Below are positions 441 to 5,487 of a DNA stretch of 6,413 bases, piece after piece. The stretch's first letter is position 1. Each line of letters begins with the position of its first letter. Source of the stretch: Candidatus Poribacteria bacterium (GTDB lineage: Bacteria > Poribacteria > DTPJ01 > WJIO01); NCBI GenBank assembly GCA_014730235.1, contig WJIO01000046.1:1-6413 (forward strand). Reading direction: 5' to 3'. The notes beneath the pieces were generated by a model. The model was not told the DNA's origin. It did not search any database and saw only the letters and a program-made list of their open reading frames with translations. A program made the position numbers and the translations under genes.

Positions 441-446
441 AAGGAG
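441..446 (+). promoter_or_regulatory. Ribosome binding site of the leader ORF
   Basis: AAGGAG stands 5 bases before the ATG at 452. It is the best Shine-Dalgarno match upstream of the sigma gene, yet it serves the 27-codon ORF rather than the sigma start. This is the main reason for believing that the short ORF is translated. Confidence 0.65.
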
Positions 447-451
447 TAACT

Positions 452-535
452 ATGCTGTTATTTCCCCTGGGTCACGAGTCTGACTTTGTGTGTCTGATTT
501 CCCTCACTTTGACCTTTAACAAAGTGGGGTGTTAA
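452..535 (+). CDS. 27-residue leader peptide, probably coupled to the sigma gene
   Basis: The ORF starts at ATG 452 behind AAGGAG and ends with TAA at 533-535. The next base, 536, is the A of the sigma-factor ATG, so stop and start abut as TAAATG. The peptide reads MLLFPLGHESDFVCLISLTL followed by TFNKVGC. It has a hydrophobic middle, six leucines, and no run of a single amino acid of the kind used in classical amino-acid attenuators. Its last codons cover the hairpin at 502-529, which hides the sigma ribosome binding site. Translation of this ORF would therefore melt the hairpin and deliver ribosomes to the sigma start. The peptide itself has no recognised function; a regulatory role through the act of translation is inferred. 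It could instead be a small membrane-active peptide, but it is short for that. Confidence 0.55.
   Translation: MLLFPLGHESDFVCLISLTLTFNKVGC
502..529 (+). promoter_or_regulatory. RNA hairpin sequestering the sigma-gene ribosome binding site
   Basis: CCTCACTTTG (502-511) pairs with CAAAGTGGGG (520-529) over ten base pairs, with one U-G wobble, around the 8-nt loop ACCUUUAA. The 3' arm contains the GUGGGG that is the only Shine-Dalgarno-like sequence before the ATG at 536 (6-base spacing). Folded, the hairpin would block sigma translation. A ribosome finishing the leader ORF would open it. No U-tract follows, so it is not an intrinsic terminator. Confidence 0.6.
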
Positions 536-1153
536 ATGACTAAGGGTAATGTAGTTAGCGGAGTAGAAGGAAGTATTATTTCCCAGAGTATTAACAATAA
601 CGAAAGGGAGAATCTATTGAAGAAACATCTCGGTTTGGCAGAAAAGATTGCTAGTAAACGAAGTCAAATGGGGTTTGATTATGACGACTGCTATGAAGCA
701 GCACTTTTCGGTCTATATAAGGCATCCAGAGATTACGATCCTGGTAAAGGAGTTAAATTCATAACTCTTGCCTCTAAATATATACGAACCGAAATACATG
801 ATGCTGTTCGTAAGCAAAAAAAATACTACGAACATCATCTACCTCTTGACAGTTCTAATGACAGCAATAATTCTCTTTCATCCGATTTGTCCTCAGAATA
901 TACCGATATTTCCCCATCGTCGTCACCAGTAGTCAACGTTCAACGCAGGGAGCTGATACAGGTAGTCAAAGGTTCCCTGAAACCCCAGTATTGGCAGATA
1001 GTGTCTATGTCTATAGAAGGTTACACTTCAGACGAGACCGCTTCCAGGTTGTCTGAAAAGGAAGCCACAGTCCGTTCCCAGCGGAATCGAGCTTTCCTTA
1101 AATTAAAAGGCAACTCAAAGGTGGTTGACTATAACGGTGGTTTTGCCGCCTGA
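536..1153 (+). CDS. Sigma-70 family RNA polymerase sigma factor (SigH/Spo0H-like architecture)
   Basis: This protein should direct RNA polymerase to a particular promoter set. Residues 25-95 form sigma region 2: an L-[AE]-K-I helix, then DYDDCYEAALFGLYKASRDYDP and GVKFITLASKYIRTEI. This corresponds to the core-binding and -10-recognition helices; the GLYKA-RD-D pattern resembles SigH. Residues 138-192 form region 4, with a helix-turn-helix at about 164-191 (TSDETASRLSEKEATVRSQR). Region 3 is absent. A serine-rich linker (about 104-132, including SLSSDLSSEYTDISPSSSP) joins the two domains, and the C-terminal tail is short. The 205-residue length suits a group 3 or ECF-sized factor. The ATG abuts the leader ORF stop, and its GUGGGG ribosome binding site is inside a hairpin, so translation looks coupled. 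A terminator separates it from the cas operon. Its target genes are unknown; control of the CRISPR locus is possible but not shown. No anti-sigma gene is visible nearby. Confidence 0.85.
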   Translation: MTKGNVVSGVEGSIISQSINNNERENLLKKHLGLAEKIASKRSQMGFDYDDCYEAALFGLYKASRDYDPGKGVKFITLASKYIRTEIHDAVRKQKKYYEHHLPLDSSNDSNNSLSSDLSSEYTDISPSSSPVVNVQRRELIQVVKGSLKPQYWQIVSMSIEGYTSDETASRLSEKEATVRSQRNRAFLKLKGNSKVVDYNGGFAA

Positions 1154-1163
1154 AAAATATTAC

Positions 1164-1196
1164 AGCCCTGCCACACTCAAAATGGCAGGGCTTTTT
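1164..1196 (+). terminator. Rho-independent terminator after the sigma gene
   Basis: AGCCCTGCCA (1164-1173) and TGGCAGGGCT (1183-1192) form a perfect GC-rich ten-base-pair stem with a 9-base loop, followed by a short T run through 1196. It lies ten bases after the sigma stop codon. It should end the leader-sigma transcript and make the cas operon a separate unit. Confidence 0.9.
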
Positions 1197-1253
1197 CCAT
1201 TCTATCCAGTCTTATATCCTTCCAAAATATAGTTTTTATATCCCTGAATGCGT

Positions 1254-1425: not shown

Positions 1426-3051
1426 ATGGGTAAATACCTGATAGTTGGTGACGTAGATCATATCCAGGACTATGTCTTTGGCTCAACTCGCCTTCGCTCC
1501 ATTAGAGGTGCTTCAGCCTTTTTAGATATAGTTGCTGAAAAAGTTAAGCTATCCCCTCCTCTTCCACTGGAATCTAAAGATATATTACGCTGGCGCGGTG
1601 GCCAGATAGTTGCCTTATTAAAAAATGGTACAGAGGCTCAGGCAGAAGCTATATGCGCTTATATAGAAGATACATATCGCCGATTGAGTGCTGGAGAGGC
1701 CAGCATTACTATGAAATACGAGCCATACGATAATTTTTCTGATAGCATTGCCAATGTTTTTAGAAAAATACAGAATGAGAAGGATGAGCGACAGACCTTT
1801 GGCTCTTATGGAGAAGGTTGGCTTACAAGCTCTTATGATCATAGATGTGAGTTTATTCCATCTCTTAGTTCGGCTTGTCATATACCAATTGGACAAAAAC
1901 CAGATATCGCGAGAAAATATATGTCTCGCGCAGCTCTTAAACGTTGGAATATAGTAACATCCGGAAGTGAAATTCCGTCAGACCGGGACTTAAAATGTAA
2001 ATTTTCTGCAGAGGGAATAAAGACTGGAATTATACCTTATAAACCTGAGGACCTTTGGTCAAATGATTCGGATGAAAGGTATATGGCCTTTGTAATGGCG
2101 GACGGCAATGGTTTTGGACAACTTCTTCAGAGCATACCCAATGAAGATCTATACCGGGCATATTCTCAAGAACTTCACCAGTTAGTATTGAGTTCTATTG
2201 TAATGGCATCAGAAATGAGTGGAATCACCACATTCCTCAGCAAATCTCTTAAAGGAGATACCTTGCCTTTGATCCCTATAATTCTAGGCGGGGATGACAT
2301 GAGTTTTCTAATCAGAGATGAGCATGCAGTGGGATTTGCCTATCATCTATGCAATTCGTTCTGGAAACTCTCCGACAATAAGTCTTCAGATGGAATCAGT
2401 TATAAATATCCAGCTATTCAGGAAGTTATTAATCATTTCATTTGCAATAATAGAGAAATGGGGAAATTGCTATTTCCCAACAATCTAAGAAGACTTACCC
2501 TATCTACCGGCATTGCAATTGCAAAGATAAATTTCCCAATTTCCTTGTTTCGTCGTACAGCCAAGGAATTAGAGGAATCTGCAAAGGCCAAGATTCGCAG
2601 TGAACCCAATTACATCTTAGAAGGCGGTGCAATTGATTTTGCAGTAATAACAACCTCTACAGTTCAACCGCTCGATGATATTAGAAAGCAATATACATTT
2701 GTTGATGAATTTGCCGATACATTTTCAGGTCATACATTATTGACGCAGCGTCCTTATACTGTAAAGCAATTTGGCAAACTTCAGCAACTTTCAGAGGCAT
2801 TCAAAAATATCCCACGAAGTAAGCGAAAACTACTGTATCAAGAGTTTTTCAAGGGTAAAGCGCGGGCAACAGAAACATACCAATTTGTAATGTCGCGAGA
2901 AAAAGAGAATAAAGAGAAATTAGATGATATATTAAGGGATCAATTTAATTATGAAAGAGGTAACGATACTCCTTTTCACAAAGATATAAGAGATGATAAA
3001 ACCCCAATATTAGATGCTCTGGAATTAGCAGAACTTAATCCGGAGGAATAA
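1426..3051 (+). CDS. cas10: Cas10, large subunit of a type III-D effector, HD-less
   Basis: This is the signature subunit of the type III crRNA complex. It is expected to make cyclic oligoadenylate from ATP when target RNA is bound. The 541-residue product begins directly with the first palm domain: GDVDHIQDYVFGSTRLRSIR at residues 8-27, a typical Cas10 N-terminal motif. There is no room for the usual N-terminal HD nuclease. Palm 2 carries VMADGNGFG (about 223-231, metal-binding Asp226), GGDD (288-291) and LSTGIAIAKINFPISLFRRT (about 359-378). The catalytic residues look intact. The cysteines between the palms (141, 151, 191) do not form the usual paired CxxC zinc finger. The C-terminal 120 residues are helical and resemble the D4 region. 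Lack of HD is the known pattern in type III-D, so target DNA cutting by this subunit is not expected. It is the first gene of the operon. An isolated GGDEF diguanylate cyclase is ruled out by the palm 1 motif and the neighbours. Confidence 0.92.
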   Translation: MGKYLIVGDVDHIQDYVFGSTRLRSIRGASAFLDIVAEKVKLSPPLPLESKDILRWRGGQIVALLKNGTEAQAEAICAYIEDTYRRLSAGEASITMKYEPYDNFSDSIANVFRKIQNEKDERQTFGSYGEGWLTSSYDHRCEFIPSLSSACHIPIGQKPDIARKYMSRAALKRWNIVTSGSEIPSDRDLKCKFSAEGIKTGIIPYKPEDLWSNDSDERYMAFVMADGNGFGQLLQSIPNEDLYRAYSQELHQLVLSSIVMASEMSGITTFLSKSLKGDTLPLIPIILGGDDMSFLIRDEHAVGFAYHLCNSFWKLSDNKSSDGISYKYPAIQEVINHFICNNREMGKLLFPNNLRRLTLSTGIAIAKINFPISLFRRTAKELEESAKAKIRSEPNYILEGGAIDFAVITTSTVQPLDDIRKQYTFVDEFADTFSGHTLLTQRPYTVKQFGKLQQLSEAFKNIPRSKRKLLYQEFFKGKARATETYQFVMSREKENKEKLDDILRDQFNYERGNDTPFHKDIRDDKTPILDALELAELNPEE

Positions 3052-3790: not shown

Positions 3791-4921
3791 ATGTCGGAAA
3801 TATATAAGAAAATACAAGGGACTTTGCTAAGTCCATGTTGTTTTAGTGATAGGCCTGCCATGGGTAATGAGGTTGATACGCTGGATTATATTCCAGGCAG
3901 TGCTGTTAGAGGGATACTGGCAAATGCTTTTCTGAATAATGGCAATGATGCAAATGAAGATTTTCGCAATATATTCTGTAGTGATAGTATTTGTTTCCCA
4001 AATTTATATCCACAGCATAGGGATAGCGATAGTCAGACCTATCCCATCCCGCTTTCCATATATACCTGCAAAACCAAACCAGGTTTTATTAATGAACCAA
4101 ACACTCATGGCGCTCGTGATATGCTATTTGAGAATTTTGATGGTTCCAATGACAGAAGATGTGAAGTTGATTCAGATTGCGGTTACGCTCCACTTGTGCC
4201 AATAAAAGGTTTTTACAATGGTAATAGTCAGCGACCAAAACAATATATTCCTGATAAACTAATTATTACTAGGACAGCAGTAAATTCAATTAGCAATAGT
4301 GCTTTAGAAGCAAGTTTACATTCTCAGCAGGAGTTGCCAGAAGGAAGTAGGTTACAGGGAGTTATTTCTTTAAAAGACGATGATTTATATATCAAATTAA
4401 TTGAAGGTTTAGGATCAGAAGAATTAGTGGTTTATGCTGGCAGAAGACGTATGGGGAAAATAGAGTTAAACCTATCTGAAAATGCTGTAAAACCAAATTC
4501 GGAATTTTTGGATATTCCTAAAGAAGAAGGATTCATGTTCTTTACTTTAACTCTTTTATCAGATGCAATTGTGATGGATGAGTTACTGCGTCCTGTTATC
4601 ACATTAACTCCAACAATTATGAAAGACAGACAGATAGGTTTTCCAGAAGATGTAGATATTACTATAGTTAAAGCCTTTTGCGGTAAACGGATTATATCAG
4701 GATGGCACAGCGTTGCTAAAATATTTAAACCGGATGATCTTGCCATAATAAAAGGCTCCACATTCCTTATGAGGATAGAAGAAAAGCACAAAGATATGGT
4801 GAAGAAATGGATGGAAGAAATACTTTGTACTGGTATAGGCCTGAGAAGAAGCGAAGGCTTTGGTCAAATATCCATTAGCGCTAATATCCATATTATGGGT
4901 AGTAGGGGAGATGCTTTATGA
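3791..4921 (+). CDS. csx10: Csx10, Cas5-like RAMP protein of type III-D
   Basis: This subunit should hold the 5' tag end of the crRNA, the Cas5 position, in the effector. The 376-residue protein has features of Csx10: DTLDYIPGSAVRGILANAF (29-47); PIPLSIYTCK (85-94) followed by GARDMLF; a cysteine pair CEVDSDC (124-130) running into GYAPLVPIKGFY; a RAMP core NSALEASLHSQQELPEGSRL (169-188); a first glycine/arginine loop YAGRRRMGKIEL (215-226); and, at the C-terminus, GWHSVAKIFKPDDLAIIKGS (304-323) and the G-loop GIGLRRSEGFGQI (348-360). Additional cysteines at 63, 68 and 93 may contribute to metal binding. AGGAG lies 9 bases before the ATG, and the gene follows cas7 by 2 bases. Its stop overlaps the next start as ATGA. 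Csx10 plus an HD-less Cas10 defines the III-D assignment. Confidence 0.85.
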   Translation: MSEIYKKIQGTLLSPCCFSDRPAMGNEVDTLDYIPGSAVRGILANAFLNNGNDANEDFRNIFCSDSICFPNLYPQHRDSDSQTYPIPLSIYTCKTKPGFINEPNTHGARDMLFENFDGSNDRRCEVDSDCGYAPLVPIKGFYNGNSQRPKQYIPDKLIITRTAVNSISNSALEASLHSQQELPEGSRLQGVISLKDDDLYIKLIEGLGSEELVVYAGRRRMGKIELNLSENAVKPNSEFLDIPKEEGFMFFTLTLLSDAIVMDELLRPVITLTPTIMKDRQIGFPEDVDITIVKAFCGKRIISGWHSVAKIFKPDDLAIIKGSTFLMRIEEKHKDMVKKWMEEILCTGIGLRRSEGFGQISISANIHIMGSRGDAL

Positions 4922-5487
4922 GGTCGTCTTTGAGTAGGTTTGTCCAGGATTCTGCACGAATAGGGAGTAATTTGGAAGAAAAAATTATGATTGATATATA
5001 CCTGGCTATTTTGGAAAGGCATCTTGCCAAATATGTCCAACATTCCTTAAGAGACTTAATGGGTTCAATAGATGGAACCTTAAGAGACTTAATGGGTTCA
5101 ATAGATGGAAAACCTGCCTCTCTTCAGCAATTCAAAAATGTTGTACTACGTTATGAAGAGCCAAAGAAATGGAAAGCCTTTTTGGATGGTGTAACTATAC
5201 GCAAGGGTGAATTGGAATGGGTGAAAAAAATTCAGGGATGGTTTGAAGATAATTCGAATAGTCCAGTTAATCAATGCCTGGAGAAAGTAAAAACTGATAT
5301 TTATAGAATGTATTATTCTTTGGACGAGTTGGACGAGTACCCAGAAAACCGGCCTAATACAAATTTACCCCATGATGAGTGGAATGTTTTAGTAGATAGT
5401 TTAGAAAATACAATGAAAGAAAACGTTATGCGAGAGTTTTTACTTAGAGTAACAGAATTTTTACTTAGAGTAACAGAAAGGGCATAA
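4918..5487 (+). CDS. Small helical subunit, probably Cas11-like, with internal duplications
   Basis: The 189-residue protein is predicted by eye to be mostly alpha-helical and has no RAMP glycine loop, signal peptide or membrane segment. A small helical protein between Csx10 and a Cas7 gene fits the Cas11 (small subunit) position, which stacks along the crRNA-target duplex. Csx19, an uncharacterised III-D companion, is the main alternative, and sequence motifs cannot decide between them. The gene overlaps csx10 by four bases (ATGA) and has GGGGAG 7 bases upstream, so translation is coupled. A later in-frame ATG at 4987 (residue 24) has only a weak ribosome binding site. The reading frame contains three perfect tandem duplications: SLRDLMGSIDG/TLRDLMGSIDG (43-64), LDE/LDE (135-140) and EFLLRVT/EFLLRVT (173-186). 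Without them it would be about 168 residues. All keep the frame, so the protein is probably made. Confidence 0.6.
   Translation: MRSSLSRFVQDSARIGSNLEEKIMIDIYLAILERHLAKYVQHSLRDLMGSIDGTLRDLMGSIDGKPASLQQFKNVVLRYEEPKKWKAFLDGVTIRKGELEWVKKIQGWFEDNSNSPVNQCLEKVKTDIYRMYYSLDELDEYPENRPNTNLPHDEWNVLVDSLENTMKENVMREFLLRVTEFLLRVTERA
5045..5110 (+). repeat. Perfect 33-bp tandem duplication in the small-subunit gene
   Basis: Positions 5045-5077 are repeated exactly at 5078-5110, each starting CCTTAAGAGACTTAATGGG and ending with GATGGAA. The unit is eleven codons, so the frame is kept. The absence of any mismatch points to a recent event or an active slippage site. Confidence 0.97.
5320..5337 (+). repeat. Nine-base tandem duplication (TTGGACGAG twice)
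   Basis: TTGGACGAG occurs at 5320-5328 and 5329-5337, encoding LDE twice in frame. It is the second of three tandem repeats in the same gene. Confidence 0.9.
5437..5478 (+). repeat. Perfect 21-bp tandem duplication near the 3' end of the small-subunit gene
   Basis: TTTTTACTTAGAGTAACAGA plus one A (5437-5457) is repeated exactly at 5458-5478. The unit is seven codons, encoding FLLRVTE twice. It lies just before the stop codon and spans the upstream side of the next gene's weak ribosome binding site. Confidence 0.97.

Follow-up and report, generated by a model that had tools for sequence, protein, structure and literature searches.

An ECF-like sigma factor gene preceded by a short leader ORF and a predicted masking hairpin, next to a type III-D-like CRISPR locus in Candidatus Poribacteria

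Leaders that control the translation of a downstream gene are of several kinds. In erm-type attenuators a leader ORF is combined with a hairpin that hides the ribosome binding site of the downstream gene, and the stop codon of the leader precedes the masking hairpin, while in the leaders of heat-shock sigma factors the ribosome binding site is masked by structure. Coupling of a gene to a short upstream ORF (uORF) is also described, for instance for iraD in E. coli (PMC12548453, PMC7652899), and such short ORFs may act merely as ribosome delivery (PMC12548453). In native gene pairs coupling is strongest when the genes overlap or lie at near-zero distance (PMC10666635). Directly 5' of the ECF-type sigma gene rpoE of E. 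coli lies the small ORF rseD, and rpoE is found in an operon with anti-sigma genes (PMC8595263). Sigma factors linked to CRISPR loci are known as well, namely CalpS (PMC11229360) and CASP-sigma (PMC10028731), with protease and anti-sigma partners, and the descriptions of sigma control in type III systems so far, which concern these two cases, place it at the protein level.

The window, i.e. the whole stretch of DNA that was analysed, is the entire contig C410 with 6413 bases, from an assembly of 5.5 Mb in 451 contigs. A foreign or mis-binned contig was rejected, since the composition matches that of the genome both in GC content (0.387 against a mean of 0.393) and in tetranucleotide correlation (0.934 against 0.941 +/- 0.037). 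A sigma gene is placed between CRISPR repeats and a type III-D-like cas operon, and the features of the region are as follows.

126-307: CRISPR repeats, three copies, the first degenerate, with the end ...GATCCGTGAAGGATATTGAAA
364-393, plus strand: promoter-like site, TAAACA, 18 bases, TATAAT preceded by TG (10/12 in the consensus scan)
441-446, plus strand: leader ribosome binding site AAGGAG, anti-SD energy -8.2, five bases 5' of ATG 452
452-535, plus strand: leader ORF, 27 codons, peptide MLLFPLGHESDFVCLISLTLTFNKVGC, ending with TAA 533-535
502-529, plus strand: hairpin, arms CCTCACTTTG (502-511) and CAAAGTGGGG (520-529), loop 512-519
524-531, plus strand: sigma ribosome binding site GTGGGGTG, serving ATG 536, anti-SD energy -8.2 as for the leader site, 6 of its 8 bases in the stem
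536-1153, plus strand: sigma-70-family factor, ECF-like, 205 residues, region 2 (27-96) and region 4 (141-190), with Pfam and NCBIfam matches
604-619, plus strand: TTG 617 (codon 28) with AAGGGAG before it, a possible second start not covered by the hairpin
1164-1197, plus strand: intrinsic terminator after the sigma gene, 10-pair stem and then a T run, fold -18.9 kcal/mol
1283-1311: promoter of the cas operon, TTGACA-17-TATAAA, strong, housekeeping-type, separate from the sigma promoter
1426-3051: Cas10, 541 residues, III-D-like, cyclase motif GGDD present, HD domain not detected
4918-5487: ORF of 189 residues, unmatched, located where a small subunit of Cas11-like type would lie

The inferred sigma protein matches TIGR02937, Sigma70_r2 and Sigma70_r4_2, and like CalpS and CASP-sigma it is an ECF-like factor, with regions 2 and 4, encoded beside a type III CRISPR locus. 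From the promoter-like sequence a transcript start is expected near position 400. The region 1164-1197 was flagged by the terminator scan on the reverse strand, and the last base of the promoter at 1283-1311 made the consensus scan overlook it. With a promoter-like site of its own, a terminator behind it and a separate promoter for the cas genes, the sigma gene is probably its own transcription unit and monocistronic as judged by sequence, whereas rpoE shares an operon with its anti-sigma genes. Having its own housekeeping-type promoter, the cas operon need not depend on the adjacent sigma factor.

The leader ORF has a ribosome binding site of its own and ends at the main start, the TAA abutting the sigma ATG at a distance of 0 and in a shared reading frame. 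The stem inside it consists of ten pairs, one of them G-U, around a loop of 8, with -13.8 kcal/mol when folded alone, and it persists when the whole region 395-600 is folded. The earlier note had described just this, a 27-codon ORF with a good ribosome binding site set against the sigma ATG and a ten-base-pair hairpin within it that masks the GUGGGG of the sigma start, and both descriptions are borne out; the arrangement is of a known kind and its anatomy is real. Plain minimum-energy folding shows the region to be only mildly structured, with z about -1.8 to -2.0, and no Rfam element or terminator was found at the hairpin. With the short uORFs of the iraD type the locus has in common a short, translated-looking ORF that ends at the main start and a masked downstream site, but here translation of the leader is a prediction, conservation was not found and a regulator of the leader was not recognised. 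With rseD-rpoE it shares a small ORF directly 5' of an ECF-type sigma gene, although the rseD peptide and the leader peptide are unrelated as far as tested. The pairing of a leader ORF with a site-hiding hairpin is common to the erm-type attenuators and this locus; here, however, the hairpin (502-529) is inside the leader ORF (452-535) and the stop codon comes after it, and ordinary translation of the full leader should therefore open it.

The leader is best explained as a device for ordinary translational coupling of the sigma gene, to which we give a probability of about 0.5. The sigma mRNA would be made alone from the promoter near 364-393, and the sigma site at 524-531 would be folded into the 10-bp hairpin, so that few ribosomes should initiate directly at ATG 536. 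A ribosome starting at ATG 452 would pass through the hairpin and melt it, terminate at TAA 533-535 against ATG 536, and either reinitiate there or leave the site open for another ribosome. The output of sigma factor would then track initiation at the leader, and the leader peptide itself would probably be irrelevant. The reading is built on the ORF, its abutment, the hairpin in prediction and the strengths of the two ribosome binding sites, from which we infer leader translation, a hairpin that also forms in the cell, and coupling between the two frames. The rarity of the combination and the wide use of SD sites in the genome, both given below, speak for coupling as well, and so do the published preference for near-zero distances and the view of short ORFs as ribosome delivery. 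In constrained folding the sigma site is 0.14 unpaired without ribosomes, and a ribosome placed on leader codons 23-28 raises this to 1.0.

This rise, as well as the layout, fits coupling. The earlier proposal went further and made leader translation a strict requirement for sigma synthesis, which is weakened by a second SD, outside the hairpin, before TTG 617. The statement that the sigma gene has no ribosome binding site besides the masked one is not confirmed, since AAGGGAG at 604-610 (anti-SD energy -8.4) stands before this in-frame TTG with a 6-base spacer. An equally good site before an in-frame start is present in 3% of 40-codon gene interiors in the genome, and AAGGGAG is predicted to be mostly paired in a longer fold. 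A factor initiated at 617 would be short of about one residue of region 2, its first. Codons 2-27 of the sigma gene are coding-like (they rank at the 63rd percentile among real gene pieces, and 1% of out-of-frame pieces score above them), and the start at 536 is favoured for this reason. The codon usage of the leader is non-coding-like, at the 2nd percentile of real gene pieces and with 44% of out-of-frame pieces higher, which fits an unselected peptide and chance equally well. In addition, the leader AAGGAG lies inside a weak 8-bp hairpin (about 443-464, about -6.9 kcal/mol), and initiation at the leader is therefore not obviously free. The non-coding-like codons, TTG 617 and the hairpin at the leader site count against coupling, as do the lack of relatives in the searches described below and the expectation of about one chance case per genome.

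This last figure comes from dinucleotide shuffles and from a comparison with 211 genes with free upstream DNA, drawn from 0.8 Mb of the contigs of the same genome; a simple script with a preference for good SD sites set their starts, and the figures are therefore approximate. A short uORF with an SD and ending at the start precedes 4 of the 211, a stem of at least 10 pairs lies over the SD in 2.4%, and the two features together, even with stems of 8, in none (0/211). Both features appeared in one of 3000 dinucleotide shuffles of 395-535. An SD of -6 or better is found at 59% of the scripted starts against 8% of random positions, the former value being inflated because starts were picked partly by their SD. 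This puts the chance rate at roughly 1 in 2000-3000 per gene: the layout of leader, hairpin and sigma gene is unusual for one gene, yet about one per genome should arise by chance, and the case was selected by a reader seeking such arrangements. No similar design is seen in the genome's other sigma genes with an assignable start, some twenty in number. Another gene with sigma region 2, L122:1471, has an 11-bp hairpin just 5' of a possible TTG start, the start being uncertain.

Coincidence is a serious rival and quite possible; the ORF and the hairpin would then be chance features of a 5' untranslated region, with direct initiation at ATG 536 or TTG 617. The expected one case per genome, the non-coding-like leader codons, the strong SD before the internal TTG outside the hairpin and energy z-scores of merely about -2 are all in line with it. 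It has to bring together an exact abutment, a leader SD and an SD-masking stem at one and the same gene, however, and in the variant with initiation at 617 it is disfavoured by the coding-like sigma codons 2-27.

The remaining alternatives are weaker. The earlier note had suggested that initiation or stalling in the leader would set the sigma level. An erm-like attenuator, in which a pause around codons 14-17 opens the 5' arm so that a second ribosome can reach the sigma site, has some appeal in that the site is 0.6-0.7 unpaired in constrained folding with a ribosome at these codons and the spacing would accommodate two ribosomes. It is nevertheless unlikely: no stall motif was recognised in the leader, its codons are non-coding-like and conservation was not found, the stop codon lies on the other side of the hairpin from that of an erm-type leader, and full translation already opens the hairpin, which makes a stall unnecessary. 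Neither a stalling nor a sensing role of the leader is supported.

Another possibility, a very unlikely one, is that the dyad serves as an operator in the DNA, bound by a repressor or by a regulator of the sigma gene itself, with the RNA hairpin being incidental. The 10-bp half-sites are near-perfect, spaced by 8 bases and close to the promoter, but the dyad core occurs only once in the genome and a local regulator gene was not recognised in the window. The leader region as a whole is single copy in the genome, and a repeated element was rejected on this ground.

The shared frame of leader and sigma gene could suggest that the leader is a former N-terminus of the sigma factor cut off by the in-frame TAA, or that the TAA is read through. 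There is little to recommend this in the contrast between the non-coding-like leader codons and the coding-like sigma codons 2-27, and region 2, with its first residue at 27, is spaced normally from ATG 536; we regard it as most improbable. An RNA thermometer, in which the sigma site would be unmasked by heat in the manner of heat-shock sigma leaders with their masked sites, was rejected, since no melting of the hairpin is predicted (the unpaired fraction of the site stays at 0.14-0.19 between 20 and 75 C) and an Rfam match is absent.

Relatives of the locus were sought in several ways. No orthologue of the sigma factor was found in viral, genome or phage contig collections, and a plasmid collection gave no usable one, with a single weak match to region 2. 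The 84 genomes of the phylum contain generic sigma factors only, with 23-37% identity, and no orthologue. Searches across the phylum with the leader peptide and the leader DNA returned only weak or low-complexity chance matches. Nor was a close relative of the window's Cas10, sought as a handle on syntenic loci, found. Translational coupling at this gene, if real, would add another sigma factor under translated-leader control, located beside a type III-D CRISPR operon; as one sequence without relatives found it is mainly a testable lead.

The cas operon encodes Cas10, two Cas7-type proteins and Csx10/Cas5, with the end of the contig falling inside it, and no second-messenger effector was found in the window. 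Compared with the loci of CalpS and CASP-sigma, the effector here is III-D-like, and no comparable sigma gene lies near any of the 20 further cas10-like loci examined in the phylum (0/20). Two sigma matches near such loci resemble, with 52-54% identity, the sigma factor L109 of this genome, a 623-residue frame that is probably the housekeeping one. Among the proteins of the window no protease or anti-sigma partner was recognised, in an operon that is interrupted by the contig end and includes the unmatched ORF 4918-5487. A functional link between the sigma factor and the CRISPR system is thus hypothetical, as partners were not recognised and the 20 other loci lack a comparable sigma gene. We regard it as quite a long shot that a CRISPR-linked sigma factor is gated by translation of the leader, so that changes in translation during infection (a shortage of ribosomes or a pause in the leader) would set a transcriptional antiviral response beside the type III-D system. 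A CRISPR-regulated mini-ORF toxin like CreTA was rejected as far as the spacers inside the contig go: its three spacer-like stretches gave no seed match of 8-12 bases to 330-560 on either strand.

The repeat of the window is also found, in decayed form, on contig C377 beside a type I cas operon in which Cas6, a Cas8-like protein, Cas7, Cas5, Cas3, Cas4, Cas1 and Cas2 were identified by reading the protein sequences, and because of this common repeat the type III-D-like and type I systems may share crRNAs. A second III-D-like locus, only distantly related, is carried by contig C435. ORF 4918-5487 contains three in-frame tandem duplications, exact or nearly so and recent-looking, of 33 bases at 5045-5110, 9 bases at 5320-5338 and 21 bases at 5433-5478.
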